Shown here one piece after another: positions 3,468 to 15,764 of a stretch of 45,010 nt of DNA. Made by a program: the position numbers and the translations under genes. The stretch's first letter is position 1. Each line of letters starts with the position of its first letter. The stretch comes from an uncultured Clostridia bacterium. Lineage in GTDB: Bacteria > Bacillota > Clostridia > Christensenellales > Borkfalkiaceae. The notes under the pieces are model-generated. The model saw only the letters and a list, made by a program, of their open reading frames with translations, did no database searches and was not told the DNA's origin. Location of the stretch: assembly GCA_947626005.1 (NCBI GenBank), contig CANQQM010000005.1, forward strand, positions 1-45,010. The letters run 5' to 3'.

Positions 3468-3665
3468 TTATTCGATGCCTTCGTTGAGCTTTTCGAGGAG
3501 GGCGGTAAGGTCCTCGCCATGGACGGCGACGGCCTCCGCGATCGTCTCTCCGTGCGCCATTGCGCAGCCGAAGCAGTGCATGCCCGCGGCAAGGAGGATC
3601 TCCGCCGCGTTCGGATTGAGTTCGAGGCACTCCGCGATGAGGGTGTTTTCGGTTATTTTCGCCAT
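3468..3665 (-). CDS. DUF1858 domain protein, redox-disulfide type
   Basis: 65-residue soluble protein matching the DUF1858 / hybrid-cluster-associated disulfide family. An N-terminal helix is followed by the GMHCFGCAMAHGETI motif (about residues 28-42), whose CxxC pair is the family hallmark. The biochemical role of the family is not established; a redox or metal-linked function is inferred from the motif. The gene is monocistronic: it has its own promoter (3697-3725), an AAAGGAGT ribosome binding site and a terminator. Its placement between spoVAC and the ABC-F gene says little about function. Confidence 0.85.
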   Translation of the reverse strand: MAKITENTLIAECLELNPNAAEILLAAGMHCFGCAMAHGETIAEAVAVHGEDLTALLEKLNEGIE

Positions 3666-3696
3666 AATTTTTTACTCCTTTGGTTTGATCGTCCCT

Positions 3697-3725
3697 ATTC
3701 TATCACATCCGCGCACGTTTTTCAA
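3697..3725 (-). promoter_or_regulatory. Promoter for the DUF1858 gene
   Basis: Minus-strand TTGAAA (3720-3725), 17-bp spacer, TAGAAT (3697-3702), followed by AAAGGAGT before the ATG. Confidence 0.75.
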
Positions 3726-3753
3726 CTCTTTTTCGGATATTTTTTCGGGGAAA

Positions 3754-4203
3754 TTACAGCCCGATGAGCCAATATACGAGCCCGACCGCCGCCCCCGCCG
3801 AGACGCCGAACACGAGGATGGGCCCCGCGACGAGGAACATCTTCGCCGCCATGCCGTAGACGAGCCCTTCCGTCTTGAATTCGATCGCGGGAGAGGCAAC
3901 GGAGTTGGCGAATCCCGTGATGGGCACGATGCTCCCCGCCCCCGCGTTCTTGCCGATGCGGTCGTAGACGCCGAGCCCCGTGAGAAGGGTGCCGAGAAAG
4001 ATGAGGAGGACGGAGACCGTCCCCGCGAGCTCGTCCCCCGTGAGCCCCGCGAATTCGAGCATGAAACGGAAAAACTGCCCGATGCTGCAGATGAATCCGC
4101 CGACAAGGAAGGCCCTGCCGCAAGTTTGAAAGTGCTTGGTGGGCGGGTCGAAGCGGTTGACGTAGCGGAGGTAGTTCCGGTTGACGTTTCCCTGCCCCGT
4201 CAT
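3754..4203 (-). CDS. spoVAC: Stage V sporulation protein AC
   Basis: 149-residue membrane component of the SpoVA dipicolinate channel; in Bacillus SpoVAC behaves as a mechanosensitive channel. Four hydrophobic segments are visible. The conserved AGSIVPITGFANSVASPAIEFKTEG-type region is around residues 88-113. Length is typical. The ATG overlaps the stop of a 30-codon upstream frame (ATGA), which suggests translational coupling if that frame is real. GGGGGAGA lies 7 nt upstream. Unlike the common spoVAC-spoVAD-spoVAE order, it is not followed by spoVAD: a monocistronic DUF1858 gene and an ABC-F gene intervene. Confidence 0.93.
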   Translation of the reverse strand: MTGQGNVNRNYLRYVNRFDPPTKHFQTCGRAFLVGGFICSIGQFFRFMLEFAGLTGDELAGTVSVLLIFLGTLLTGLGVYDRIGKNAGAGSIVPITGFANSVASPAIEFKTEGLVYGMAAKMFLVAGPILVFGVSAGAAVGLVYWLIGL

Positions 4204-4292
4204 CCGCGGATCTCCCCCTTCCGCCGTTCGGGGAAGCAGGTCTCGCGCTCCTCACGCGTCTTGCCGATCGGTTCGCCTTTGACTTTTTTCAT
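4200..4292 (-). CDS. Putative 30-residue protein coupled to spoVAC
   Basis: Frame ATG (4292) to TGA (4200-4202) encodes a highly charged 30-mer starting MKKVKGEPIGKTREE and ending RRKGEIRG, with one Cys. Its stop codon overlaps the spoVAC ATG by 4 nt, a layout used repeatedly by genuine neighbours in this window. The upstream ribosome binding site is weak (TTAAAGAC). It could be a leader peptide controlling spoVAC translation or a chance frame; I recognise no family. Confidence 0.4.
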   Translation of the reverse strand: MKKVKGEPIGKTREERETCFPERRKGEIRG

Positions 4293-4332
4293 GTCTTTAA
4301 TTTGGCGCAACAAACCTCTTTTTATACAGGGC

Positions 4333-4361
4333 AAAAGAGCCGCCTGCAAAGGCAGACGGCT
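4333..4361 (-). terminator. Terminator at the end of the phage head operon
   Basis: Stem AGCCGTCTGC / GCAGGCGGCT with one mismatch, then CTTTTGCC on the minus strand, 22 nt after the last phage-module stop codon. Confidence 0.65.
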
Positions 4362-4382
4362 CCCCCTCTTCCCCTTTCGGGG

Positions 4383-4877
4383 CTATACGACGTACGATGC
4401 GAGGAGTTCGTACAGCGTCTCGTAAAATTCGCCGAGATAGTGGCGGGCAAGCGAATCCATCGAGTAGGCGGTGAGGCGGACCTCCGGGTCCTTCTCGATG
4501 TTCATGTAATAGTTCCGAACGACGAGGAAGCGCTGGGAATAGGTCAGGCTGTAGTTGGGATTTTCGGGATAGCGGTAGGGTCCGTTTGCGTTCCCCTCCG
4601 AGCCGAGCGACTCGTACGCAAGCTGATGGAGGAGGTCCTCCCGCACGACGTCGACGTCGGCGTTCGCCTGCGCCATGATCCTCTCCGTCTCCCGCTCCCG
4701 CGCCTCCGAACGGGCGTTCCCGTTTGCAAGCATGAGCATGAAGAGCTCCGAGGCGGCGTCGTTCGCCTTTAAGAGGATTTCGTCCTTTTTCCCCTGTGCG
4801 ACCCGCACCATCGACAGCTGTACGGGGGAGAGGTCGGCGTATTGGGGATCGGTGAGGTCGATGATGTCGATCTTCAT
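4383..4877 (-). CDS. Phage-module protein of unknown function, last gene of the head operon
   Basis: 164-residue soluble, acidic protein. The first half is helical and charged (for example KKDEILLKANDAASELFMLM, then a Glu/Arg/Ala-rich stretch to about residue 80). The second half is Tyr-rich (PYRYPENPNYSLTYSQRF, about 99-116) and ends in a helix. No signal peptide or membrane segment. The ATG at 4877 overlaps the TGA of the gp10-like gene by 4 nt, so it belongs to the head operon. By position it could be a head-completion or virion-internal protein; I do not recognise the family. Confidence 0.75.
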   Translation of the reverse strand: MKIDIIDLTDPQYADLSPVQLSMVRVAQGKKDEILLKANDAASELFMLMLANGNARSEARERETERIMAQANADVDVVREDLLHQLAYESLGSEGNANGPYRYPENPNYSLTYSQRFLVVRNYYMNIEKDPEVRLTAYSMDSLARHYLGEFYETLYELLASYVV

Positions 4878-6136
4878 GCTTTCACCTCCCGCATGTGCAG
4901 GACGATCTCGTCGATGACGCTCTCGGGGGAAGGACTGCGCACGGTGAGGTGCACCCTTCCGCCGCGGAGAACTTTCGGGAAGGGCGAACGCACCCCCGCC
5001 TTGGCGTAGACGTCGGCGCTCCCCCACTCGGAGGAAAAGCCGACGCGGAATTCCCCGCTCCCGCCGACGGTGATCCCCTCGAAGAAACAGGGTTCGCCGT
5101 ACCGCCGTAAAACAAAGGTGCAATCGAGAGAGCTCTCGTACGTTCCGTAGAGGGGAAATTTTCGCCCGGAGAGACGGAGAAGGCGGCTCCCGAGGAGGAA
5201 GTACACCCCGTCCCGTCCCGCGGCAAGCGCGTTCGCCGCCGTTCTGACAAGATGGGCGCCCGCCTCCGTATCGTAGACGAAGATGCAATCGCTCCCGCCC
5301 GAAGAAAAGCCCGCATAGTACTTTCCGTTCCATCCTCCCGCGCCCGTCCCCGTGAAGCTCTCCCCCTCCTTGGGGGAATAGACGAGGCGGAAGGAGGCGC
5401 CGTCGAAGCGGAAGAGGCCGCGCTCCGTCACGAAGAGGACGCTCCCGCCCGTCTCCGCCGCCGACCCCGCGACGGGCGTTCCCCCGTCGAAGGGCACGCG
5501 TTCGAAGCGGAAGTTTAAGTCTCCCGCATCGGCGCGGAGGCGGAGAATTTCGTGTTCGCGGAAGAGGTAGAGCCTCCCCCCGAACGGGACGAGCGCGACG
5601 ACCTCTCCCCCGTTTTCGGTGAGGACGATGCGCCCGCCCTCCTCCGAAAGCTCCCAATTTTCGGGCTCGAGCGGGGCGGTGTAGTTCAAGAGGTTCCCCG
5701 AGGCAATATATAGCCTCTCTCCGAGCACGGCGGCGCACTTCCCGCCCGAAGAGCCCACCTGCCGCGCCGTTCCCCCTTCGAGAAGATAGACGCCCGTTTC
5801 CGTCACGGCGTAGAACTTCCGTTTCTCCTTGAAGCGGTCGTAGGAGAGCACCGCGCGGGGGACGGACGGGAGGAGGAATTCCTCCCCCGTCGGGTAGGCG
5901 GTGAGCGCGTTGCCCTCCGCCGCAAAGACGCCGCCTTCCGGGAGAAAGAGCCTCTGCGCCGTCAACCCCGAGGAGACGAGGGCGCTCCCTTCGGCGGCGA
6001 TCCACTTTCCGTCCTTTTCCTCGAGCTGATTGAGGGTGCATGAGAGGACGCTTTCAGAGGTCCTTACGAATTCGGGCGTCATGCGAAGGAAGAAACGGCG
6101 CACATCGTAGGAAAGGGCGCCCTTTTCGGGGATCAT
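4874..6136 (-). CDS. gp10-like head-completion / DNA stabilisation protein (putative)
   Basis: 420-residue beta-rich protein with recurring short strand motifs (KFYAVTETGVYLLEGG, RLYLFREHEILRL, SVLFVTERGLFRFDG), as expected for a beta-propeller. P22 gp10, the packaged-DNA stabilisation protein that closes the portal, is of similar size, has a propeller hub and follows gp4, as this gene follows the gp4-like gene. The assignment rests on fold pattern, length and gene order, not on a clear sequence signature. The ATG at 6136 has AAGGAGGTG 5 nt upstream and overlaps the previous stop (ATGA). The frame is open further upstream, but that extension is antisense or out of register with the neighbour. 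A tail hub protein is the alternative. Confidence 0.65.
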   Translation of the reverse strand: MIPEKGALSYDVRRFFLRMTPEFVRTSESVLSCTLNQLEEKDGKWIAAEGSALVSSGLTAQRLFLPEGGVFAAEGNALTAYPTGEEFLLPSVPRAVLSYDRFKEKRKFYAVTETGVYLLEGGTARQVGSSGGKCAAVLGERLYIASGNLLNYTAPLEPENWELSEEGGRIVLTENGGEVVALVPFGGRLYLFREHEILRLRADAGDLNFRFERVPFDGGTPVAGSAAETGGSVLFVTERGLFRFDGASFRLVYSPKEGESFTGTGAGGWNGKYYAGFSSGGSDCIFVYDTEAGAHLVRTAANALAAGRDGVYFLLGSRLLRLSGRKFPLYGTYESSLDCTFVLRRYGEPCFFEGITVGGSGEFRVGFSSEWGSADVYAKAGVRSPFPKVLRGGRVHLTVRSPSPESVIDEIVLHMREVKA

Positions 6137-6684
6137 GCCCACCTCCTTGCGCGGAGGCGCAACTTCCTCCGGAAGATGTTCGCCGCCCGAAGCGCGTCGT
6201 GGTACTTCCCCTCGAAGGCGGAGGCCTCGGGATAGAGCCCGCGGGAGAGGCAGAACTCCGCCGCCACCCCGAACGCCATGAGCCGCGCCGAGACCTTCCC
6301 CGAAAAGTCCGAATCCTCCTTGATCCCCTTCTCCTCGGGCGCAAAGGCGTAGACTATGGTGACCTCTCCCGCCCTTTCCGAAAGCTCGATGCGGTCGGGG
6401 AAGAGACGGTACGCCCGCGCCGTGCCCTCCTCCTCGACGGAGGAGACGAAGACGGGCCGACGGGAGAACTCGGAAAAGTACACGACGCCCTCCTCGGGCA
6501 CAAAGCATTCCTTGCGCTTTAGGGGAAAGTAGTCGATCGCGATCTCGTTCTCGATGATGTTGTAGCATTTAAGGAGCAGCTTCATCTCCTCGTCGAGGTA
6601 GGGATCGGAATTCTCCGCCTCCGCCGCGAGGTCGTCCCTGCCGACGAGCGCCGCCGCAAGCGAAAGCACTTCTTTGACCTGCAT
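6133..6684 (-). CDS. Head-tail adaptor protein, P22 gp4-like
   Basis: 183-residue protein placed directly after the major capsid gene. It is largely helical at the N terminus (LLLKCYNIIENEIAIDYFPL, about 37-56), has a beta-rich middle and ends in a basic helix (RRKLRLRARRW), as in connector proteins that dock under the portal. P22 gp4 is 166 residues and holds the same position. AAAAAAGGAGGGCGT precedes the ATG. The stop overlaps the next ATG. Function is inferred from size, fold pattern and synteny. Confidence 0.7.
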   Translation of the reverse strand: MQVKEVLSLAAALVGRDDLAAEAENSDPYLDEEMKLLLKCYNIIENEIAIDYFPLKRKECFVPEEGVVYFSEFSRRPVFVSSVEEEGTARAYRLFPDRIELSERAGEVTIVYAFAPEEKGIKEDSDFSGKVSARLMAFGVAAEFCLSRGLYPEASAFEGKYHDALRAANIFRRKLRLRARRWA

Positions 6685-6697
6685 ACGCCCTCCTTTT

Positions 6698-7861
6698 TTA
6701 CGCCTCGGTGATCTCGGTGAGCTGTGCCTGTCCGCAGGGGCGGTAGCAGAGGAGCTCGGCGTACTTCACGAGGGTCGCCGTGTAGATGGGCCTTCCCGCG
6801 ACCTGCTTTAAGATCTTGCCGTCCTCCCCTTCCATCCACTGCCAGTCGCCGAGCTGATGGAGGGCGAAGTCGTCGGTGTTGAGGAGGTACATCGTCCCCT
6901 TCGGGCAGAAGCGGTCGGCGACGACGGGGATGCCGTTGAAGCTGAGGGCGCGGAAGCCGCCTTCGAGGTCGACCGTCTCCGCCTTGCGGTAAACGGAGAG
7001 CGCCGAAAGAAGCGCCCTTCTCACTCCCCAAGAGCAGACGATGAAGTTGATCTTGCTCCCCGAGCGCTCCTCGACCTCGTCGATCGCCGTCTGGATGGCG
7101 TTCTCGGTGATCTCGCCGCCCACGCTCTTTTTATAGGGGGTGAGCCATGCGTTGCCCTCCCGCGGGACGCCGTAGAGCGATTCGCCCTCCCCGAAGATGG
7201 CCTGAAGCCCCGTGATCTCGAGCCCCTTGGAGTGCTGAAGGCAGAGGGTGAAGTTCTCGGGGGAGGAAATGGCGGCGCCCGAAAGGACGATCTTGGAGGC
7301 GTTGCGGTCGACCGAGGTGATCGTCCGCCCCGCCGTATTCGTCGCGCCGCCCGTGTTGTAGACGTCGACGATCATCCCCTCGGCGAGGTTGCGGGTGGAG
7401 TCGACGGTGTAGAGAGAGTGGTTGCTCTCGTCGACCGCCGTGATCTTCGCAAGCGTCCCGCTGCCGTCGCCGAAGAGCATTCTGCCGAGGTGGAAGGACG
7501 AAGTCTTGACGAGGCCGTCCATCTCGTCGTTGAGAAGGTTGACGAACGCCCCCTCCGAAGAGCTCGAGGCGCGGATCGCCTTGTCGGTGATCTCGATGAC
7601 GCCGTAGAGGTTCTTGAGGGTGGAGACGAAGGTCGCGTAGTTGTTTCCGCCCGATGCGGGGAGGGAGCCGACCTCCGTGCCCGCGCCGACGCCGCCGTTG
7701 ACGCCGTAGCGCACGGCCTTTCGGACGTCCTTCCCCCAGACGTCCGCCGTCGTCTTTTTGATGGCGGCAAGGAGGGGGTTGGCGGACTTGTCGAGCTGGT
7801 CCGTCACCGCGCTTAAATAGTAAGATTTGAGTACGCTGTCCGCGTTAGTCGTATTGATCAT
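6698..7861 (-). CDS. Major capsid protein
   Basis: 387-residue protein with the features of an HK97-fold coat protein. An N-terminal helical arm is followed by a segment rich in Gly (GGVGAGTEVGSLPASGG, about 55-71), a long central beta region with an insertion (GTLAKITAVDES..., 135 onward), and the conserved coat ending NGIPVVADRFCPKGTMYLLNTDDF (about 310-333). No protease domain or long cleaved delta-domain is evident; the scaffold-like gene upstream is separate, as in P22. AAGGAGAAAGC precedes the ATG. The frame is complete, arguing for recent selection or recent arrival. Confidence 0.88.
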   Translation of the reverse strand: MINTTNADSVLKSYYLSAVTDQLDKSANPLLAAIKKTTADVWGKDVRKAVRYGVNGGVGAGTEVGSLPASGGNNYATFVSTLKNLYGVIEITDKAIRASSSSEGAFVNLLNDEMDGLVKTSSFHLGRMLFGDGSGTLAKITAVDESNHSLYTVDSTRNLAEGMIVDVYNTGGATNTAGRTITSVDRNASKIVLSGAAISSPENFTLCLQHSKGLEITGLQAIFGEGESLYGVPREGNAWLTPYKKSVGGEITENAIQTAIDEVEERSGSKINFIVCSWGVRRALLSALSVYRKAETVDLEGGFRALSFNGIPVVADRFCPKGTMYLLNTDDFALHQLGDWQWMEGEDGKILKQVAGRPIYTATLVKYAELLCYRPCGQAQLTEITEA

Positions 7862-7870
7862 GCTTTCTCC

Positions 7871-8257
7871 TTAATTTTTATGCGTTCGCAGGTAGCCGAG
7901 CGCGAGCTTGCCCGCATCGGCGACGGTGGCGGGACGGACAGACGGCGCCGTCAGCCCCACCCCTTCGTTCGTCATGAGGGGGACGCTCCAGACCGCTTGC
8001 AGGGGAACTTCCTCCTTCGCGGCGCTCTCCCCTTCCGTGTCCGTGCGGCGGAGCTCCCCCTGCCCGCACGGCGCGTGCGCCTCTTCCTTCTTTCGGAGCT
8101 GCTCCTCGAGCGCCCGAAGTTTTTGACTGCGGCGGGTAAATTCCGCTTCGAGCTCTCCGTACGCACGCACGAGGGCATCGACGCTCTTGAATTTCCCCGC
8201 GAGCGGTGCCGAGCTCTCGGCGTCCGCGGGATCTAAGACGTTTTCTTCCTCTTCCAC
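7871..8257 (-). CDS. Scaffold-like protein, short
   Basis: 128-residue acidic protein between portal and capsid genes. The segment GKFKSVDALVRAYGELEAEF (about 21-40) followed by a coiled-coil-like Lys/Glu/Arg stretch to about 65 is typical of phage scaffold proteins; the middle is low in complexity and the C terminus is a short helix (DAGKLALGYLRTHK) that could bind coat. It is much shorter than P22 scaffold (303 residues). It starts with GTG (8257); AAAGGAGG upstream lies inside the end of the portal gene, whose stop is 3 nt away. Confidence 0.7.
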   Translation of the reverse strand: MEEEENVLDPADAESSAPLAGKFKSVDALVRAYGELEAEFTRRSQKLRALEEQLRKKEEAHAPCGQGELRRTDTEGESAAKEEVPLQAVWSVPLMTNEGVGLTAPSVRPATVADAGKLALGYLRTHKN

Positions 8258-8260
8258 GAA

Positions 8261-10102
8261 TTATCCTCCTTTGCGGCGATGGGAACTGAGGTGGCGCAAA
8301 AACCTCTCCTTTGTCGCCGCGTCCGCTTCCCCGCCCGAGAGCAGGGCGCGGAGATGTTCGGTGAGGTGAAGGGCGTGGTCGTCGTACTCGTCCGCCTCCA
8401 CCTCCTCCTGCGCAAGACGCACGTTCTCCCGCTCCGCCTTTTTGATGTGGAGCGCGGAGATGTCCCGTGCGTTTTCCGCCGAGCCGTAGCCGAGCGCTTC
8501 GAGCACGCGGTTTTTGGTCTCGTCGGGAATGTTGCCCTCCTTGTCCGAAAGCAGCCCGAGGGAAAGAAGGCGGAGAATGTCCTCTTTTTCTTGTTCGGGC
8601 GTGCGGTCGTACCCCGTCTCGAACGTGACGTCGTCCGCCGAGATATCGCTCGCATCGAAATAGAAGAGCTCGGTATGTCCGCCCGTCCCCGTCATGCGGA
8701 GCAGCCGATGCGTCGCCGCGAACTGTTTGTAAAGGTGCAGGATCTGTTTGCCGACTTCCTTTATCGCGCGTTCGACGCTTTCGACGCTCATCTGCATGCG
8801 GTTGGTGTCCTGATCGAGGAGGAGCTGCAATCCGACGGCGCTCATGACGTGCGTGGGATTGGCGGAATTGCGCGAGATCTCGCTCATCCCCGAGACGAGG
8901 ATGAATTCTCCCGAGATGCGCTCTTCCTCCTCCTCGAATTCGGCGGGAAGCTCCCCGCAGTCGAGAAAGGCGGGTGCGGAGGAGCCTTGGCGATAGACGA
9001 GGACTTTCCCGGGATACAGTCCTTCCTCCGCCAGCTCCTCGGCGTCCACGGAGCCGTCCTCCACCGTGATGACCCCCGAAAGCAGACGGTTGAGGAACTC
9101 GTGCTTGCGGTTCCTCACGGCGTTATACGCCCGCTGCAGAGGGATCATGCGGTCGACGACGGACGTCCCGAAGAAGGCGCCTGCGAGCGGAATGCTCGTC
9201 TGCCGTATAAAGGGCAAGGTGCGTTCTCCGCGGTCTCCGTTGCGGTACGGAAGAGGGCCTTCGTAGAGGAGGACCCCTCCCGCTTCGATCTCCAACCGTC
9301 CTTCGGGGTGCTCCCCGTCCGGACGGATATACCGTTCAATGAGAATTTCCCGATCTTCCCCGATCGGGCGGGCGTCTCCGTCGAGGGGGCGTTTCCACCC
9401 GCTCGCCGAAGAATAGGGCGCAAAGGCAAAGTCCTTTATGATGCGCCCGGGGAGTTCGACCCCGAATTTTTCCTTGATCTCCGAGACGGGCACCGCCTTC
9501 GCGTGGATGATGCTCCCCACCTCCTCCATGCTCTCCGCAAGGAGGGAATCGGGATAGATCTCGAAGGGAGAGAGCGCGACGACGTTGACGTCCCCCTCTC
9601 TTATGCTGTGCCCCGACGCGTCGGTGCCGATGACGTTGCCGTCGTTGAAATTCCAGACGACCTTATAAAAGCTCGTGCCGCACGTCTCCGACCAGAGGGT
9701 GGCGCGGGCGATGACCTTGTCGAGGTCGAGGCGGCTTTTTACCGACTTCAGAATGTTCGTCGAGAGCCGTGCCGTCTTGATGTCCGCCTCGTCGTCCGAA
9801 AAGGCGCGGACTTCGAGCGTCGGCCTTACCTTTGCAAGGCGGGCAAGGCGGGTGTCGACCGTCGGCGCGATGTGGTTGAAGGCGCGGCGGGACTGCCAGT
9901 AGAAGGCGGTGCTCTCCTCCTCGATCTCCCCCGCGGGGGTGAGGTCGCAGAACTGGTTGCCGCTCACGAAGTTCATGTTGAGTTCCCAGCCCCGCTCGAG
10001 CATCTTCCGCGCCTCCCGTCGCCGCTCGAAGTCCTCTTCGATCGCGCGGGCAAGGTCACGCCTCCGCTTCTCCTCCGCTTCGGCCATTGTGTCTTTTTGC
10101 AT
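8261..10102 (-). CDS. Phage portal protein
   Basis: 613-residue portal, the dodecameric ring at the capsid vertex through which DNA is packaged. N-terminal charged helix, then WELNMNFVSGNQF and a SRRAFNHIAPTVDTRLARLAKVRP-type segment (about 70-93). These, with the conserved central pattern IPLQRAYNAVRNRKHEFLNR (about 323-342), match P22-type portals. The C-terminal 60 residues are a long charged helix. The ATG at 10102 has an excellent AAAGGAGG, so the start overlaps the end of the preceding gene by 47 nt; an in-frame ATG at 10087 is the alternative. Length is close to P22 gp1 (about 725) minus its barrel extension. Confidence 0.85.
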   Translation of the reverse strand: MQKDTMAEAEEKRRRDLARAIEEDFERRREARKMLERGWELNMNFVSGNQFCDLTPAGEIEEESTAFYWQSRRAFNHIAPTVDTRLARLAKVRPTLEVRAFSDDEADIKTARLSTNILKSVKSRLDLDKVIARATLWSETCGTSFYKVVWNFNDGNVIGTDASGHSIREGDVNVVALSPFEIYPDSLLAESMEEVGSIIHAKAVPVSEIKEKFGVELPGRIIKDFAFAPYSSASGWKRPLDGDARPIGEDREILIERYIRPDGEHPEGRLEIEAGGVLLYEGPLPYRNGDRGERTLPFIRQTSIPLAGAFFGTSVVDRMIPLQRAYNAVRNRKHEFLNRLLSGVITVEDGSVDAEELAEEGLYPGKVLVYRQGSSAPAFLDCGELPAEFEEEEERISGEFILVSGMSEISRNSANPTHVMSAVGLQLLLDQDTNRMQMSVESVERAIKEVGKQILHLYKQFAATHRLLRMTGTGGHTELFYFDASDISADDVTFETGYDRTPEQEKEDILRLLSLGLLSDKEGNIPDETKNRVLEALGYGSAENARDISALHIKKAERENVRLAQEEVEADEYDDHALHLTEHLRALLSGGEADAATKERFLRHLSSHRRKGG

Positions 10103-10349
10103 CTTCTTCCTCCTTTAATTGCCGTAAAAGGCGCTGTTTTTCCCGTTCGAGCTCCTCGTCGGACAGGGCGGAATAGTCGCGTCCGTCCATGAGCAGCTTG
10201 ACCGCTTTGAGATCGGGCGGGACGTCCTTTCTCGTCTCCCGCCGTTTGACGAGTCTGAGCTCGCCGTCCTTGGCGTCGTACTCCTCGGTGACTTCTTCGA
10301 GGGAAAAGCCGAGCGCCACTTTGAGGATGGCTTCGTCGAGTTTGTTCAC
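10056..10349 (-). CDS. Small packaging-associated protein, terminase small-subunit-like C terminus
   Basis: 97-residue charged protein starting at GTG (10349) with AGGAGGAG upstream. The GTG overlaps the terL stop (GTGA). The segment ILKVALGFSLEEVTEEY (about 8-24), followed by KRRETRKDVPPDLKAVKLL (about 34-52), resembles the C-terminal part of many small terminase subunits, where KR-x-VPPD precedes a helix. A DNA-binding helix-turn-helix domain at the N terminus is absent, so this is either a reduced small terminase or a different partner of TerL. The last 47 nt overlap the portal gene in another frame. Position after rather than before terL is unusual for a small terminase. Confidence 0.6.
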   Translation of the reverse strand: MNKLDEAILKVALGFSLEEVTEEYDAKDGELRLVKRRETRKDVPPDLKAVKLLMDGRDYSALSDEELEREKQRLLRQLKEEEDAKRHNGRSGGEAEA

Positions 10350-11770
10350 GGTCTCCTCCTGAATTTGCGGATCCTGCGGATGAGGTCCTTTTCGAGTTCG
10401 CTCTTTTCTTCCTTGACTTTGGGGGGACGGGGGCGGGACATGAGGTAGTAGCGCAGTTCGTCCATCGCGTGGTCGTCCCGCTTGACGGGGGTGTCGCCGC
10501 TCCCCCAGAAGTACCCCTTGAATTCGCGGATGAGGTTGGTGCACCCGCGGAAGATGTAGAGGTCGGGAAAGCCGTTCCCCCTCTTTAAGTACCGCTTGAC
10601 CTGCGCGATCCCCGAAAAGACGTCTTTGTCGACCCGCGGGTTGACGAGGATGTTGCGCTCGTAGAAGAGGGCGGAAACGCTCTTCTCGGCGGCAAGCGTT
10701 CTGCACTCGGCCGCCGAATCGATGAGGGCGGAAAGGCGGCCCTTTTCGTCCCGTTTCCAGCCGATGCGGTCGGAGATCCCGTGGATGGCGTCGGCGTGGG
10801 AATCGACGTCGAGCCCCGCCGCATAGTGCTCTGCGACGACGTAGACGTTCCCGTCGTAGTCGACCGCATACCAGTGCGCCGAGAGCGGGTTTTTGAGCCC
10901 CGGGTCGATGGAGATCGTATCCTGCCACTCCTTGGGGACGGGAAAGGGATCGATAACATGCACGCTCTCGTCGAATTCGGGGTAGACGAGCCCCTCCCGC
11001 GCACAGAATTTTCCGTAGCGGCGGGACTGGAGGGTCGTCTCGTCCATCGTCCTCTCGAGGAGGTCGATCTCCTTCTTCGGGAGGAAGGGATTATCCGCCC
11101 ACTCCATGAACTCGTACCAGATCTCGGGGTCGTTTTTGGGGTTTAAGTAGATCTCCTCATAGATGTACGTCAGCCCTTTTAGCGGGGTCATGGTACCGAA
11201 AATATCCCCTCTGCGGTCGGCGACGCGCATGCGGCACTCCTCGTAGATATCCTTCGGCGGCTCCTCGTCGAACCACACGAAATCGAGAGAGCTCCCCTGA
11301 AAGCGTTCCCTGCCCTGATCGCAGCTCTTGAACCCGATGACCGACGTTCCGCCGAACACGTTCTTCACATAGATCTGGTCGATGATGCCCGAGGCGGGCG
11401 CATCCTTTCTTCCGCTCGTCATGACGATGTCCTCGATCCAGTCGGGGCGGAGATAGGTGAGGATCTTGCTCTGTGCGACGTCGCGCTGTACCTGCGAGGT
11501 GAGCGACACCACCCACCCGAACACGTTGGGTTTATTCTTCCTGTAAGGGTGGATGCCGCGGGCGAGGTAGACGGCCTCGACGGCGCCGCACTCCGTCTTT
11601 CCGGAGCGGTTCCCGCCGAATACCCAGCGGTTGCGCTTTTTGGAGCGGTGGAATTCGAGCTGCTTTTTGTGTTTTTTCCGACCCGTATTGTAGCGGGCGA
11701 GGGCGTCGTGCTCGGCACGCAGCCGCTGCTCGGCCTCGATCGCGCGGATCATTTCCAATAATTCGTTCAT
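10346..11770 (-). CDS. terL: Terminase large subunit
   Basis: 474-residue packaging motor. The ATPase domain has Walker A GGNRSGKT (about 52-59) and Walker B LDFVWFDEEP (about 162-171) with the catalytic Glu pair. An FGTMTPL coupling segment follows. The C-terminal RNase H-like nuclease has Asp in SIDPGLKNPLSAHW (about 287), ALIDSAAE and DDHAMDELRY. All catalytic positions expected for a working motor are present. The ATG at 11770 is used here; a TTG at 11779 is in frame. The ribosome binding site is poor and no good sigma-A promoter is visible in the 44-54 bp before it, so transcription may come from the upstream regulator or need an activator. The neighbour 11824-12519 is divergent. Confidence 0.92.
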   Translation of the reverse strand: MNELLEMIRAIEAEQRLRAEHDALARYNTGRKKHKKQLEFHRSKKRNRWVFGGNRSGKTECGAVEAVYLARGIHPYRKNKPNVFGWVVSLTSQVQRDVAQSKILTYLRPDWIEDIVMTSGRKDAPASGIIDQIYVKNVFGGTSVIGFKSCDQGRERFQGSSLDFVWFDEEPPKDIYEECRMRVADRRGDIFGTMTPLKGLTYIYEEIYLNPKNDPEIWYEFMEWADNPFLPKKEIDLLERTMDETTLQSRRYGKFCAREGLVYPEFDESVHVIDPFPVPKEWQDTISIDPGLKNPLSAHWYAVDYDGNVYVVAEHYAAGLDVDSHADAIHGISDRIGWKRDEKGRLSALIDSAAECRTLAAEKSVSALFYERNILVNPRVDKDVFSGIAQVKRYLKRGNGFPDLYIFRGCTNLIREFKGYFWGSGDTPVKRDDHAMDELRYYLMSRPRPPKVKEEKSELEKDLIRRIRKFRRRP

Positions 11771-11823
11771 ATTCGTCAAAAGGTATGCGCTCCCGCGGGG
11801 AAAAACGCGCTATCATGGCGCGT

Positions 11824-12519
11824 ATGAAAAAGCTCATTCCCCTCGTTTTGCTCCTTCTTCCCCTCCTTGTTCCCCTTCCCGTAAAGAGGGCCTCCGCCGA
11901 CGAACTGCGCTACGCCGTCGCCGCGGACAGCAATGTCTGGTTTTATGCGGCGGAGAGTGAGGACGAGAAGCTCTTCCTCCTCCCCGAGAGCTACTATGTG
12001 CGCGTTCTCAGCGTCGGGGAGGAATTCACCGCGGCGGAATATCTTGTCAACGACCCTCCCTTCCGCAAGGTCATGGGCTATTGCCGGACAGACGCCCTCA
12101 CCTTCGTCGACTTCATCCCCGCCCGACCCTATCTTCGGAAGGAGATCACCGTCTCCTATACCCTCCCCGGGGGCGGGAGCGGGGTGGACGAACTCTTTTC
12201 GAGCATCGAGCGCACCTTCGTCTACTACGGCGACCGCTACGAGAAGGGACAGCTCTACTTCTATGTCCTCTACGACGGGAAGTTCGGCTACATCCCCGCC
12301 GAGGAGGAAGTCGTCTTTGAACGCAACGACGACTATCTCTCCGTCCCCGCGGGCCCGGGCGTGAGCGCCGAAGAGGAGCCCCCGAAGGAGAGTTCGAAGG
12401 GCGCCTCGCTCGGGGTACAGATCGCCGCCTGCTGCATCGTGCTCGTTGCGGCGGTCGCGATCGGCGTTTTCGTCCTCCGCGGAAAGCGGGCCTCCCCCTC
12501 CGACGAACGCGAACCGTAG
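11824..12519 (+). CDS. Secreted, C-terminally membrane-anchored protein of unknown function
   Basis: 231-residue protein with a signal peptide (KK then a Leu/Pro-rich core and cleavage-like RASA-DE at about residues 23-27). A beta-rich extracellular part (SH3-like by eye, about 27-170) includes KVMGYCRTDALTFVDFIPARP. A short linker, a membrane segment (about 195-217, AACCIVLVAAVAIGVFVL) and a basic tail follow. The architecture matches the larger plus-strand protein at 13161. An in-frame ATG at 11815 is an alternative start. TATCAT (11811-11816) ends 7 nt before the ATG at 11824, a spacing that would give a leaderless mRNA. Its last 187 nt overlap the phage regulator gene on the other strand. 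It interrupts the phage module yet looks host-derived. Confidence 0.75.
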   Translation: MKKLIPLVLLLLPLLVPLPVKRASADELRYAVAADSNVWFYAAESEDEKLFLLPESYYVRVLSVGEEFTAAEYLVNDPPFRKVMGYCRTDALTFVDFIPARPYLRKEITVSYTLPGGGSGVDELFSSIERTFVYYGDRYEKGQLYFYVLYDGKFGYIPAEEEVVFERNDDYLSVPAGPGVSAEEEPPKESSKGASLGVQIAACCIVLVAAVAIGVFVLRGKRASPSDEREP

Positions 12520-12992
12520 CGGGGATGGGCGCAGGCGACGCGGTCCCTCCCCTCCCTGACGGCGCGGAGGGCGCAGAGAAAGGGCGGATAGCCCGAAAAT
12601 TCCTCGAAGAAACGCTCGTCCGACCAGCCGAGGGCGACGAACGCCGCCGTCACGCGGCGAAGGAGAGCGCACTGCATGCGGAAATAGCTGCGCTTCGAAC
12701 AGTTGGCGAATTCGAAGCCGTCGCCGCTCTTTCCCTCACGGAAATATTTGTAGCCGACAAGCGCCCTCTCCCTCTCACCGAGAATAGAGAGCACCCGCAA
12801 AACGTCCTCCTTGAGGGCGCGGAGCCTCTCCGCAAGGACAAGCTCCTCCGCGACGGCCGCGGCCGCCTCCAACGTCTTTTCCTTCCGGAAGGACAGGACC
12901 GCCTTGTTCTCCGCCGCCGCCGAAAGCGCCTCGGAAAATCCCTCGAGCTGAGGGAACGCATATAAAAATACCTTCGTGATCTCCTCGTGCAT
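12333..12992 (-). CDS. ArpU/RinA-like phage transcription regulator (putative)
   Basis: 219-residue protein. Residues 1-150 have the pattern of clostridial late-gene or packaging regulators: a helical N-terminal half, then a sigma-region-4-like helix-turn-helix (LSILGERERALVGYKYFREG and CSKRSYFRMQCALLRRV, about 68-113), then FFEEFSGYPPFLCAL. The last 60 or so residues are low-complexity, rich in Arg/Ser/Thr/Pro, and are simply the antisense of the convergent gene; a lost stop codon is likely. The ATG at 12992 follows GGAGGA. A LexA-type box (13030-13043) lies just downstream of a TAAAAT -10-like element. Such regulators usually activate the adjacent terminase operon. Confidence 0.72.
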   Translation of the reverse strand: MHEEITKVFLYAFPQLEGFSEALSAAAENKAVLSFRKEKTLEAAAAVAEELVLAERLRALKEDVLRVLSILGERERALVGYKYFREGKSGDGFEFANCSKRSYFRMQCALLRRVTAAFVALGWSDERFFEEFSGYPPFLCALRAVREGRDRVACAHPRYGSRSSEGEARFPRRTKTPIATAATSTMQQAAICTPSEAPFELSFGGSSSALTPGPAGTER

Positions 12993-13160: not shown

Positions 13161-15764
13161 ATGGATATGAAATTTCCTTTGAAGGGACGCAAACTTTTTT
13201 TGTTCGCCGCACTGCTTTTTCTTTTTGCGGCGTTCTTTGCCCTGCCGAGAACGAAGGCGTCTGCCGCCGAGCTCACGACGGCGGAGGGCATGCTTGCCCT
13301 TCCCGGGAGCTACGAACAGTACCTCGACCTCCGTTCCCCCAAGGATATTGCGATCAGTGAAACGCACATTGCGATCGCCGACGGCAACCGCATCTACCTC
13401 TATTCCCGCGGCAAGGAAAACGCCGTCTACCGCGTGTACGACAGCGGGTCCTCTTCCGCCACCTTCGGGAAGATCCAGTTCGCGGACGGCCTCCTCTACT
13501 TTACCGACGCCGCGATGAAACTGCACACCCTCGACCCCGACGCTTCGGACTTCGACGTCAAGGAGATCGACTACAACCTTGCCAATTTCATCGTCGCCGA
13601 CGGGAAGATCTACGGCACGACGACGATGGGCACCACCACCTCCCTCTATTCCCTCTCTCCCGACGGCTCGACGGACATTCCCTCCATCGAAAAGCCGCTT
13701 GCGACCAACCTCCCCGCACAGCTCCCGATGACCTATGCGGACGGGGTATTCTACTATGCGATGAACGGCGCCGTCTGCCCCTTCAATACGAAGAGCGACA
13801 GCGCGGGCGTCTCCTTCTTCCTCGACCCGCAGAACGGTCAGCTCCAGCCGAGCGCCATCTGCGCCATCGGGAAGTACATGTTCTTCACCGACGAACGGGG
13901 GCTGCACCGTGCCGACATGACGGGGGGCTCCCCCCTCGTTACCGTCGCGGAAGGATCGGGCTATTCCGCCCTCTCGGGCTCGAACGGCATGCTCTACTGC
14001 ATTGCGGGGAACGCCGTAAAGGAGCTCTCCGTCGGGGAGACCTGTTCCTTTACCGACTATGAGATCACGGCGGCGTCCGCTGCCGAAAACCGCCTTTCGG
14101 GGGCGGTGGATTGCGTGCGCGCGGGCGACCTTCTCGTCACCGCCGATGCGGGCAACCGCCGCATTTCCGTCGCGACGCTCACCCGCGCCGAACGGGCGGA
14201 CGGCGGGCAGGAGACGCGCATCCTCGGCTACTCCGTCATTCCCTGTATCGACGGGAACGGCGACGCGTACGTCCCCTCCCTTGTCGCAACGGACGGCAAC
14301 ATTATCGCCGTAGCGGCGGAGGGCAGCGACGTCTACCTCTACCGCGCGGGAGAGAGCACCTTCTTCTACCGCCATTCGACGGGCAACAACCCCGTCACGG
14401 GGCTTGCATGCGTGTACGGGAGCGTCTATTTCGTCACGGGGCACAACTTCGGGAAGGCCGAAGCGGGCGCCGCGCTCGTTCAGCGCAACAACGGCAAGAC
14501 CAATGCCGCCCTCGCCTCCGACCTCTACGGAAAGCTCTTCGTCGTCTACGGAGACCGCTCCGTCGCCTCCTTCTCCGAGCGGGAATTCCTCGACAATACG
14601 GTCTCGGGAGAGGCGGTGGAGGGCGCCCTCCCCGAGGGATATTCCTCCCTCCGCGCCGACTTCGAGGGCAATCTTATAAAAGAAGAAGTATATTGCGAGT
14701 TGAGTAGCGGCGAAGCGGAGCCGCTTGCGACGGTGAAGGGGGAAAACTTCGCCTTCGATCAAAGCCCCGTCGCTCCCGCCGCGTTTGCGCTCGGCTTCGA
14801 GGACGACGAGCTCTTCTTCCTCTTCAACAACTACACCGTGCGCACCCATCCCGACGTCATCGACATCCCCACCCTCGACGAGATCGACGCCTCGGGCGTG
14901 TACGAATCCGTCTTTGCCGCCCACGGGAAGGAAGGGCTGCTTATCGACGTGCCCGCGGGGACGATCGGCATCCGCACCGACCTCGATATTCTGCACGAAG
15001 AGCACCCCGCCTTCTTCCCTTATTCCTTCTACTACCGCACCGACGCCGACCGCCGCGGCATTCTGCTTGCCGCCAAGGACGAATACGGCCTCGTCGTCCT
15101 CTACGACGAGTACGAGAACGACCGCGTGTTCTCGGCCACCCTCTTCCGCCTCGACGGGGAGATCTCCCGCGTGCCCGAGGAGGAATACTGGACGGTGATC
15201 GATACGGAGAGGTACCTCACAAACGACGTGAACGAGTACTTCTTCCCCTGCCTCCACGGGGCGCTCAAGGACGCCCGCCTCACCCGCGGCGCGAAGGTGG
15301 TCGTCGAGGGCTATGTTTCGGCGCCCGAACGCGATTACGCCCTCATAAGATATAAGGCGGTGCGCGGATTCGTGCCCGCCGACTACCTCACGGACGTCGC
15401 TCCCCTCCCCGAGGAGAGCACCCCCTACGAGCCCGCATGGCTCAAAGCCAACCCCGACGGCACCGACTTTGTCGCAGACGACTGGTCGACGATCCATATC
15501 ACCGAGCGCACGAGGGCGCAGTTCGTCGACAACGGCGACGGGACGTACACGGCGACCGTGTACGTCGAAGACGAAAACGGCGGCCCCGCGAAGGCGTATC
15601 GGGCGATCGTCGACGGATCGAAGATCGACCGCGGCGAATCGGACGTTCTCCGCATCACCCTCATCGTCATTCTGACGGTGCTTGCCGTCGTCATCATCGG
15701 GGCGTACGTCTACCTTCTTCCCCGAAAATCCAAAAATCAAGAGAATTTATCCCGCCGACCTTGA
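13161..15764 (+). CDS. Large exported beta-rich protein with C-terminal membrane anchor
   Basis: 867-residue surface protein. A signal peptide covers about residues 1-35 (KGRKLFLFAALLFLFAAFF core, cleavage near KASA-AE). A beta-propeller-like region of repeated short strands follows (ISETHIAIADGNRIYLYS, LYFTDAAMKLHTL, KYMFFTDERGLHRADM, LLVTADAGNRRISVAT), to about residue 500. An SH3-like stretch comes near 700-765 (ARLTRGAKVVVEGYV...YALIRYKAVRGFVPADYL). A single membrane helix (about 830-852) and a basic tail end the chain. The domain plan resembles the smaller protein at 11824, suggesting related cell-surface roles. ATG 13161 is chosen because it directly precedes the signal peptide; ATG 13167 is also possible. 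The stop codon lies inside the -35 box of the next gene. No enzyme motif is seen. Confidence 0.82.
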   Translation: MDMKFPLKGRKLFLFAALLFLFAAFFALPRTKASAAELTTAEGMLALPGSYEQYLDLRSPKDIAISETHIAIADGNRIYLYSRGKENAVYRVYDSGSSSATFGKIQFADGLLYFTDAAMKLHTLDPDASDFDVKEIDYNLANFIVADGKIYGTTTMGTTTSLYSLSPDGSTDIPSIEKPLATNLPAQLPMTYADGVFYYAMNGAVCPFNTKSDSAGVSFFLDPQNGQLQPSAICAIGKYMFFTDERGLHRADMTGGSPLVTVAEGSGYSALSGSNGMLYCIAGNAVKELSVGETCSFTDYEITAASAAENRLSGAVDCVRAGDLLVTADAGNRRISVATLTRAERADGGQETRILGYSVIPCIDGNGDAYVPSLVATDGNIIAVAAEGSDVYLYRAGESTFFYRHSTGNNPVTGLACVYGSVYFVTGHNFGKAEAGAALVQRNNGKTNAALASDLYGKLFVVYGDRSVASFSEREFLDNTVSGEAVEGALPEGYSSLRADFEGNLIKEEVYCELSSGEAEPLATVKGENFAFDQSPVAPAAFALGFEDDELFFLFNNYTVRTHPDVIDIPTLDEIDASGVYESVFAAHGKEGLLIDVPAGTIGIRTDLDILHEEHPAFFPYSFYYRTDADRRGILLAAKDEYGLVVLYDEYENDRVFSATLFRLDGEISRVPEEEYWTVIDTERYLTNDVNEYFFPCLHGALKDARLTRGAKVVVEGYVSAPERDYALIRYKAVRGFVPADYLTDVAPLPEESTPYEPAWLKANPDGTDFVADDWSTIHITERTRAQFVDNGDGTYTATVYVEDENGGPAKAYRAIVDGSKIDRGESDVLRITLIVILTVLAVVIIGAYVYLLPRKSKNQENLSRRP

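Follow-up and report, generated by a model that had tools for sequence, protein, structure and literature searches.

The window, i.e., the whole stretch of 45,010 nucleotides that was analysed, contains eight intact, tightly packed frames on the minus strand at 4383–11770, as originally predicted. The first is terL (10346..11770), encoding a large terminase of 474 aa that matches PF03237 (5.5e-12), phrog_2 (5.1e-30) and the solved terminases 5oe8 and 4zni. It is followed by a gene for a TerS-like protein of 97 aa (10056..10349), recognised by hhalign comparison of its family alignment, A4, with full-length TerS, and by the gene for a portal protein of 613 aa (8261..10102; PF16510 P22_portal, 1.9e-16; phrog_156, 2.2e-32). 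The scaffold-like protein (7871..8257; 128 aa) is named from its position between portal and capsid; it has no Pfam or PHROG family match, and across the loci of the genus its position is kept at 33–59% identity. The major capsid protein (MCP; 6698..7861; 387 aa) is of podovirus type, as it matches NCBIfam NF033394 'capsid_maj_Podo' at 246 bits (3.8e-73; cut-off 80) and phrog_14242 at 2e-61. The predicted identities of terL, portal and capsid are thus borne out by phage family matches for all three. A gp4-like head-to-tail adaptor of 183 aa (6133..6684) is assigned by position and size; it matches no Pfam or PHROG family and keeps its position in every genus locus reaching that far. The cassette ends with a putative tail nozzle of 420 aa (4874..6136), all-beta, with a propeller-like and a further beta domain, and with a distal helical protein of 164 aa (4383..4877), a shortened DUF7934 relative according to hhalign.

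The ten flanking proteins in the window are host-type, as had been expected, and no integrase is found among them. On one side lie a SpoVAC/AEB-type protein, a DUF1858 protein, an ABC-F-like ATPase, SpoVAD and another SpoVAC/AEB-type protein; on the other side GH43, a MurG-like protein, YunB, UPF0029 and TyrS. A terminator at the cassette end did not stand out from chance, with 13 terminator-like sites in 3600–12600 against 10.7 ± 3.6 in shuffled sequences and a weak site at 4355–4340. The full eight-gene set occurs in identical order in 39 of 42 loci of the same genus, the remaining three running off contig ends, and the arrangement is therefore not due to chance. Recurrence at the spoVA locus holds in part: the set recurs, but with several kinds of downstream flank within the genus, the spoVA side being one of them. 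The upstream flank is conserved and comprises an SH3 protein, a regulator, a large beta-propeller-like protein and often GH43.

Genes accompanying the cassette

Judged from this conserved neighbourhood, the unit is larger than 4383–11770, as the SH3 membrane protein and the sigma-region-4-like regulator belong with the cassette. The SH3 protein is encoded divergently at 11824..12519 on the plus strand and has a signal sequence, an SH3-like region and a C-terminal membrane anchor (topology assigned by eye). It is matched in all 42 genus loci, and the divergent gene that precedes terL in other families is its homologue (probability 98.8, E 4.5e-17). Pfam gives no match for the window copy and SH3_3 for a relative from family f32. 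The regulator, at about 12333..12992 on the minus strand with its conserved part at about 12519–12992, is likewise matched in 42/42 genus loci. The window copy matches neither Pfam nor NCBIfam, while same-place genes in other families match it (probability 99.1, E 5.5e-19) and the counterpart in f6 carries PF08281 Sigma70_r4_2 (2.2e-10). Both genes accompany terL across families. The third neighbour (13200..15764, plus strand), known from gene call and translation, encodes a large protein, putatively secreted or membrane-bound, that looks beta-propeller-like by eye and has no Pfam match above cut-off; a gene of roughly 770–890 aa lies there in most genus loci reaching it. In the upstream regions of the SH3 gene and terL, compared over 84 loci, certain stretches recur around the starts of both, with no nameable promoter class between the two genes. 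In the window, the ATG of terL has no clear ribosome-binding site.

Tail nozzle and last gene

In a sequence search of solved structures, MCP had two matches, both short and weak, and the nozzle had none, so that fold comparison was needed for the latter. The AlphaFold2 model of the nozzle (pLDDT 94.5, pTM 0.92) best matches the nozzles of podoviruses, namely Pa223, GP4, VP1, Sf6 gp8 and P22 gp10, and the podovirus nozzle fold spans residues ~15–416 of 420. The confident model thus predicts a podovirus-type tail nozzle, in agreement with the label 'gp10-like' that the protein had been given. It also speaks against the description of the operon as tail-less, as the predicted nozzle is part of a short tail. 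The last protein matches seven relatives from the order (hhalign probability 97.4, E 9.4e-12). The window copy has no Pfam match, and PF25588 is matched in the two of these relatives that were scanned; one relative carries LysM. The model is helical (pLDDT 89, pTM 0.53), and the protein is encoded by the final cassette gene in genus loci reaching that far.

Terminase

TerL is predicted to combine an ATPase motor and a headful nuclease. The catalytic residues, originally reported as all present, are indeed so, and across 52 aligned sequences the acidic residues of ATPase and nuclease do not vary except for gaps. The TerS-like alignment A4 matches the phage-type TerS of locus L057 (hhalign probability 97.1, E 7.3e-11), whose full-length protein corresponds to phrog_309 (3.6e-20), and aligns to residues 62–161 of its 165. 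By this alignment, the protein is a phage small terminase reduced to its C-terminal part, the N-terminal DNA-binding region being absent, so that the 'small packaging-type protein' of the original prediction is a small-terminase relative, but a truncated one. In 39 of 42 genus loci, fewer than 25 aa precede the shared domain. Among 80 named genomes, TerS is short and placed after terL in 62, has a longer possible start in eight, occurs without terL in two and is not matched in eight. For 40 loci from the order, the corresponding numbers are 17, one, seven and 12, with TerS before terL in the remaining three (L057 and L065, long; L292, short). None of six loci from outside the order, examined by gene calls only among those listed, has a TerS match.

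In family f28, terL lies apart from the other cassette genes in seven of eight genomes examined (0.8–1.3 Mb): it is 38–103 kb from the capsid gene in six and on another contig in the seventh, with no internal stops. At 38–103 kb, one small head would not hold both genes. A presumed split terL in G283 was rejected, as it represents a contig break. As a separate observation, five genomes have terL interrupted by a mobile element, always at the same codon, and in one genome this element carries Thoeris defence genes; literature combining Tn7-like, terminase and insertion site gave no match.

Distribution, inheritance and selection

MCP is matched in 57 of 61 genus genomes, that of the window included, and in 173 of 297 sampled Christensenellales genomes (including two weak remnants, G101 and G227) from 63 of 125 genera, mostly in single copy; the other 124 genomes have no match. 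In a sample of 391 from the class, order members among them, 12 genomes from outside the order have a match. Of 40 splits, 25 are common to the cassette and rpoB trees (200 shuffles: mean 0.2, maximum 2). For 17 of 22 supported cassette splits there is compatibility with the supported rpoB splits (100 shuffles, maximum 2), and five conflict. Within the genus 14 of 25 splits are shared (shuffles maximum 2), and outside it 8 of 10, all six supported ones being identical. Within the genus, cassette and rpoB distances correlate weakly and not significantly (Spearman 0.20; maximum 0.37 in 500 shuffles). These 43-genome trees were built without G036 (partial rpoB), G405 (partial terL) and genomes missing terL, portal or MCP on the fetched locus; the distances and restricted trees also leave out G000 and G001, as the partial rpoB pieces of these two do not overlap. 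Remnants of old synteny across families, with genes named by eye, are groES-groEL in f10 and f28, infC-rpmI-rplT in f3 and f28, and polA in f18 and f28. Taken at the level of these trees, the cassette is vertically inherited, together with the chromosome of its hosts, in much of the order. It is retained in genomes of 0.8–1.3 Mb, among the smallest of the order.

Closest-pair dN/dS is 0.10–0.19 for MCP, 0.12–0.17 for portal and 0.12–0.24 for terL, and the aligned parts of these genes are free of stops in 32 genomes. By these ratios, far below 1, the three core genes are under purifying selection. The other genes evolve faster. Closest-pair values reach 0.56–0.70 for the scaffold, gp4-like and last genes and 0.85 for the SH3 gene. 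For the nozzle, the median is 0.66 where dS is under 2; of the four closest pairs, two lie at 0.24–0.32 and two at 1.3–1.5, the latter (dN near 1) probably saturated or misaligned. Seven stops counted in the 'small' gene probably stem from alignments running past the gene end, because the window copy is longer than its relatives.

A candidate gene transfer agent and its alternatives

We estimate a probability of about 0.8 that the cassette, known here from its genes, encodes a domesticated, short-tailed phage particle of the type of gene transfer agents (GTAs). Its genes are intact and, through much of the order, have descended together with the chromosome, which makes it a strong candidate for a built-in particle of gene exchange and not for a virus in decay. 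GTAs have been described as caudovirion-like particles of Caudoviricete-derived proteins that deliver mostly random host DNA to other cells. Their genes are fully endogenised, often in several loci, and cannot be packaged completely in a head that is too small, and they are inherited mostly vertically while co-diversifying with their hosts; protein similarity is one of the two accepted demonstrations of this kind (PMC9662315). In the cassette, Caudoviricete-derived proteins are indicated by the TerL, portal and MCP families and by the nozzle fold, and endogenisation by host genes on both sides and by the displaced yet intact terL of most f28 genomes. Co-diversification follows from the congruence with rpoB, the five conflicts notwithstanding. 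As to random host DNA, a TerS without DNA-binding region and the GTA-like packaging reported for HGM11616 and QANA01 (PMC12946183) are suggestive only. Together with order-wide, mostly single-copy presence and purifying selection on the core, these data favour the GTA-like or domesticated particle that the original prediction had named among its options.

The regulator may switch on transcription from the terL side. Capsid, scaffold and portal would build a small head (capsid and portal being assigned to families), into which TerL and the truncated TerS would thread the host chromosome without choice of site and cut it at headful; the truncation is read from the sequence, and random headful packaging is what we infer. 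Adaptor and nozzle, the latter by predicted fold, would close the head and form a short exit tube, and a plug in the nozzle or contact with the cell wall is the probable role of the helical last protein, as the LysM of its relative might suggest. Such an element would have no autonomous life and pass on with the chromosome, its benefit most likely being DNA exchange between kin.

The GTAs of alphaproteobacteria form longer-tailed particles. RcGTA belongs to a different phylum, but, like the cassette, it and the other alphaproteobacterial GTAs are mostly vertically inherited sets of endogenised phage structural genes, often spread over several loci and co-diversifying with their hosts (PMC9662315). 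The podovirus tail of P22 and Sf6 has a gp4 adaptor and a gp10 or gp8 nozzle, whereas in the cassette no tailspike or needle is recognised, the capsid is of the NF033394 type and the last gene is a DUF7934 relative. A closer parallel in gene content, compared from the published description, is FpGTA I of Faecalibacterium, which is most likely podovirus-like and is described as having no replication genes (Borodovich et al., 2026; PMC12946183). In both systems TerS lacks an obvious DNA-binding domain; it lies upstream of TerL in FpGTA I and downstream in the cassette. FpGTA was reported as not found in Gemmiger or Subdoligranulum, and a second operon encodes a fibre, an RBP, a holin and an endolysin (PMC12946183).

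The most serious rival, although an unlikely one, is a domesticated particle that packages host DNA without delivering it, acting in killing or signalling. PBSX of Bacillus subtilis, with its long contractile tail and lysis genes, packages random host DNA. Like the cassette it is a defective phage kept by the host, and it is discussed alongside GTAs, where it is said not to inject DNA and to act as a tailocin (PMC12946183). All evidence of domestication fits such a particle equally, and TerL matches the PBSX-family terminase model, at 27 bits far under the cut-off of 105. Moreover, Pfam and PHROG revealed no receptor-binding gene in the cassette in the genus, no holin or endolysin is recognised beside it there, and the BhlA holin is found in 0/30 genus genomes. 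Against this stand the podovirus type of the nozzle and the intact terminase, portal and nozzle, i.e., parts for filling and emptying a head.

It is very improbable that the cassettes are the degraded members of a conserved family of complete phages or prophages of the order. Such phages are suggested by single-contig genome G092, which has a phage-type second locus also seen as a viral contig (L066/L344), and by relatives on viral contigs: one was found with the window capsid alone and 65 loci with alignment A1. However, TerS is upstream in none of these 65; it is short and after terL in 35, after terL with a start that may lie further out in 15, without terL in two and not matched in 13. Of eight longer viral loci inspected, several are cassettes with foreign inserts, L344, L355 and L356 being phage-like, and the host copies are mostly single, intact and congruent with rpoB. 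The annotated phage capsids closest to MCP (15 records) share 25–32% identity with it. A complete prophage with tail and integrase at the same locus did not emerge either. Of the genus loci, 35 extend at least one gene beyond the cassette. Their downstream proteins, of which 68 of 70–900 aa and with no earlier label were compared, show no phage tail family among the 25 of 78 PHROG families listed. Recombinases are sporadic: among the matches listed (25 of 78 PHROG and 25 of 103 Pfam families), two of the 35 loci have one nearby, L077 a tyrosine integrase and L022 a serine recombinase.

A decaying prophage that lost its tail, lysis and integrase genes, to which the clear phage ancestry and the phage-type relatives L057 and L065 might point, is rejected on the conserved gene order, core dN/dS, tree congruence and small-genome retention. 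Equally negligible is a capsid-forming satellite borrowing helper tails: such PICIs have a compact set of genes for packaging and for a head of their own, and in the cassette no replication or lysis genes are recognised alongside genes of this kind, but PICIs are mobile, with an integrase and a self-recognising TerS, whereas the cassette is inherited like host genes, has its own predicted nozzle, no site-recognising small terminase and, among the matches listed, no integrase of its own, and in f28 has its terL tens of kilobases away, which a mobile satellite could hardly afford.

Relation to packaging in the gut

To our knowledge, few GTAs are known in Gram-positive bacteria. FpGTA is counted by its authors as the second Gram-positive GTA or GTA-like system and as the first with podovirus-like morphology (PMC12946183). 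If the GTA-type reading is true, the podovirus-like kind extends to a further gut order, with deep vertical inheritance. The same study reported GTA-like packaging for Christensenellaceae, which accounted for 3 of 25 events, and for HGM11616 and QANA01; the whole genome of HGM11616 was enriched in virus-like particles from humans, and no operon is named there for Christensenellaceae (PMC12946183). The cassette would provide a named operon to set against these events in stool. There is, in our judgement, an even chance that the wider picture holds: an ancient, order-wide podovirus-type GTA of Christensenellales, retained even in genomes of 0.8–1.3 Mb, which has a sigma-like regulator of its own and whose terminase unit (regulator, SH3 membrane protein and TerL) is separable from the head genes, would be the operon behind the packaging events in Christensenellaceae, and also a battleground in which a site-specific element, with Thoeris genes in one genome, recurrently enters one terL codon and switches the agent off. 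The cassette is not named in the listed titles or abstract openings of literature on GTAs in Clostridia, Christensenellales, podoviruses, Faecalibacterium or domesticated Firmicutes capsids, or on HGM11616, and a search linking Borkfalkia with prophage gave no match.

A capsid gene together with a short TerS after terL would serve as a sequence marker for finding the cassette in any genome. Since the cassette persists in some of the order's smallest genomes, the long-standing question of the benefit of GTAs to their hosts becomes open to direct testing. As a signal of a possible uptake partner, ComEC was set aside as uninformative, since it is near-universal, occurring in 33 of 34 genomes, cassette-less ones included.

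Gene content and order of the cassette

The cassette was originally predicted as eight intact frames, and the gene calls bear this out: they lie on the minus strand, from 11770 down to 4383, in the order terL, a 97-aa protein, portal, scaffold-like protein, major capsid protein (MCP), gp4-like protein, gp10-like protein (the nozzle) and a 164-aa protein. In family searches TerL matched Terminase_6N, the portal matched the P22-portal family and the MCP a podovirus capsid family. The TerL catalytic residues, claimed to be complete, are indeed all present, their positions being invariant, gaps apart, across 52 aligned sequences. The cassette lies between host genes, as expected, the nearest neighbours being sporulation, cell-wall, transport-ATPase and translation genes. 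The terminator proposed at its end is not supported, the signal there being no higher than chance.

All eight genes occur in one order in 39 of 42 same-genus loci, and the other three loci stop at contig ends. An upstream sigma-region-4-like regulator gene and a divergent SH3-type membrane protein were both matched in 42/42 of these loci, and upstream of the cassette there is usually also a large protein that is beta-propeller-like. The downstream flanks differ between loci. Among 68 unlabelled downstream proteins of the genus loci, no phage tail family was found after the cassette in the best 25 of 78 PHROG families, and the Pfam families among the matches listed belong to everyday enzymes, transporters and regulators. 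A tyrosine integrase is the second gene after the cassette in locus L077 (genome G024, 13495–14403) and a serine recombinase the fourth in L022 (G039, 4183–4779); both probably belong to separate mobile elements. Other families mostly keep this order, with small additions, and BhlA-type and other holins follow the last gene in some of them. Certain neighbours, named by eye, recur between family groups, i.e., groES-groEL in f10 and f28, infC-rpmI-rplT in f3 and f28, and polA in f18 and f28.

In the window, approximately 50 bp (11770–11824) separate terL from the divergent SH3 gene. No clear ribosome-binding site precedes the ATG of terL there, and short stretches recur beside both gene starts in relatives. 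Judged from these features, the interval possibly contains leaderless divergent promoters. A separate observation is a tandem pair of capsid genes within one cassette of an f28 genome (L291 of G151, 8035–10379).

Distribution

The window genome measures 1.37 Mb. A capsid search gave matches, mostly single copy and some of them cut by contig ends, in 74 of 101 genomes, and in 57 of the 61 genomes of the genus, the window genome included. Among the named relatives that host the cassette is Borkfalkia, a member of Christensenellales according to NCBI. A profile search of this order matched 173/297 genomes and 63/125 genera, or 149 of 247 when the better genomes are considered; an internal stop was present in only two among the matches listed. 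In a class sample of 391 genomes there were 26 matches, 12 of them from outside Christensenellales. A protein search identified 6146 relatives among 8000 candidates scored.

Inheritance and selection

A tree of joined terL, portal and MCP from 43 genomes was compared with the rpoB tree. The two share 25 of 40 splits (shuffled labels: mean 0.2, maximum 2). Of the well supported cassette splits, 17/22 are compatible with every rpoB split that has good support, and five conflict. Within the genus 14/25 splits are common to both trees, and in other genera 8/10, including all six supported ones. Cassette and rpoB distances correlate across 41 genomes, with a Spearman coefficient of 0.835, while shuffles reach 0.41 at most. 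Outside the genus the correlation is 0.674 versus 0.643, barely above shuffles, and inside it is not significant (Spearman 0.20 versus a shuffle maximum of 0.37). Altogether, the trees argue for vertical inheritance of the cassette, with terL, portal and MCP largely following rpoB.

A simple decaying prophage, for which a dN/dS near 1 with frequent frameshifts had been put forward as a sign, is at odds with the closest-pair values of these three genes, which lie at 0.10–0.24 (MCP 0.10–0.19, portal 0.12–0.17, terL 0.12–0.24). Evolution is faster in the nozzle, SH3, scaffold, gp4-like and last genes, and two closest nozzle pairs have a dN/dS >1 and look saturated.

A probable gene transfer agent-like particle

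Gene transfer agents (GTAs) have been given a definition that has six features (PMC9662315). Three were tested and found here: phage-derived structural proteins, endogenisation at at least one locus and co-diversification with the host. The other three are properties of the particles: random DNA inside them, limited capacity and delivery. It is therefore well supported that the cassette, a candidate GTA, works like one. The main rival is a particle like PBSX, the defective phage particle of Bacillus subtilis, which would package DNA and not deliver it. For a domesticated, short-tailed GTA-type particle, a 2026 stool study offers a point of contact. According to its available text, virus-like particles were enriched in DNA from the whole genome of HGM11616, and Christensenellaceae showed packaging of a GTA-like kind, with no operon named there (PMC12946183). 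The cassette would be the obvious candidate operon behind this packaging.

The small protein

The relative L057, from a single-contig genome, carries a full-length phage small terminase (TerS) directly before terL (phrog_309, 3.6e-20). The 97-aa cassette protein aligns to residues 62–161 of this TerS with a probability of 97.1. The relation to packaging originally proposed thus stands, now as the C-terminal part of TerS, and the N-terminal part is missing, since the alignment covers only these residues of 165. The N-terminal part of phage small terminases is DNA-binding. In 39/42 genus loci the small gene comes after terL, and fewer than 25 residues precede its shared part; in the phage-type loci L057 and L065, TerS precedes terL and has 75–85 extra residues. 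On this alignment, the cassette protein is best described as a truncated TerS.

The single-contig genome that holds L057 (G092) has a second locus (L066/L344), in which an HTH-like ORF, recognised by eye, lies before terL. Both loci are possibly close to the ancestral phages.

Inserts in terL

In five genomes from two genera, terL is cut at codon 276 or a neighbouring codon by inserts that begin with nearly identical first bases: L295 1570–9795 (G101), L361/L253 (G009), L362 (G239), L364 (G227) and L368 (G841). The G101 insert is AT-rich, measures approximately 8.2 kb and is bordered, close to each end, by matching motifs in inverted orientation (CTATGAAAAGTCTAAA-type). Its cargo comprises a C5 (cytosine)-methyltransferase-like gene, named by eye, and Thoeris ThsA (PF20016, 2.6e-55) with two ThsB genes; no transposase was recognised in it. 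The stretch that would run from codon 277 of terL across most of the capsid gene has been lost. In the other four genomes the contigs end within the insert. The insert accounts for the four >95% complete family genomes that had no MCP match, or only a weak remnant, in the capsid and profile searches (G009, G239, G101, G227); G841 was found through a motif search that matched 3/301 family genomes.

Some IMG/VR viral contigs (L321, L346, L326 and L343) are cassettes carrying foreign inserts, identified by eye as either restriction-modification/methyltransferase genes after the capsid gene, or phage genes (tail, amidase, holin) adjoining a terL without its N-terminal part. This suggests that the cassette may act as a hotspot for integration.

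Separation of terL from the capsid genes

A search for terL (E 1e-30) in 23 genomes that had no MCP match or only a weak remnant recovered it only in four insert-bearing genomes and, as a partial match, in G083. TerL and capsid are thus mostly present or absent together. G087, a 0.9 Mb, 100% complete genome of genus g28, has neither a capsid nor a terL match; it is a clean loss and could be a natural comparison.

In six g28 genomes (0.8–1.2 Mb), terL has no internal stops and lies 38–103 kb away from the capsid; in G327 the two are on different contigs, and in G151 terL adjoins the capsid genes. The regulator-like gene stays before terL in 7/7 split cases, five of which also have a gene call for the divergent SH3 protein.
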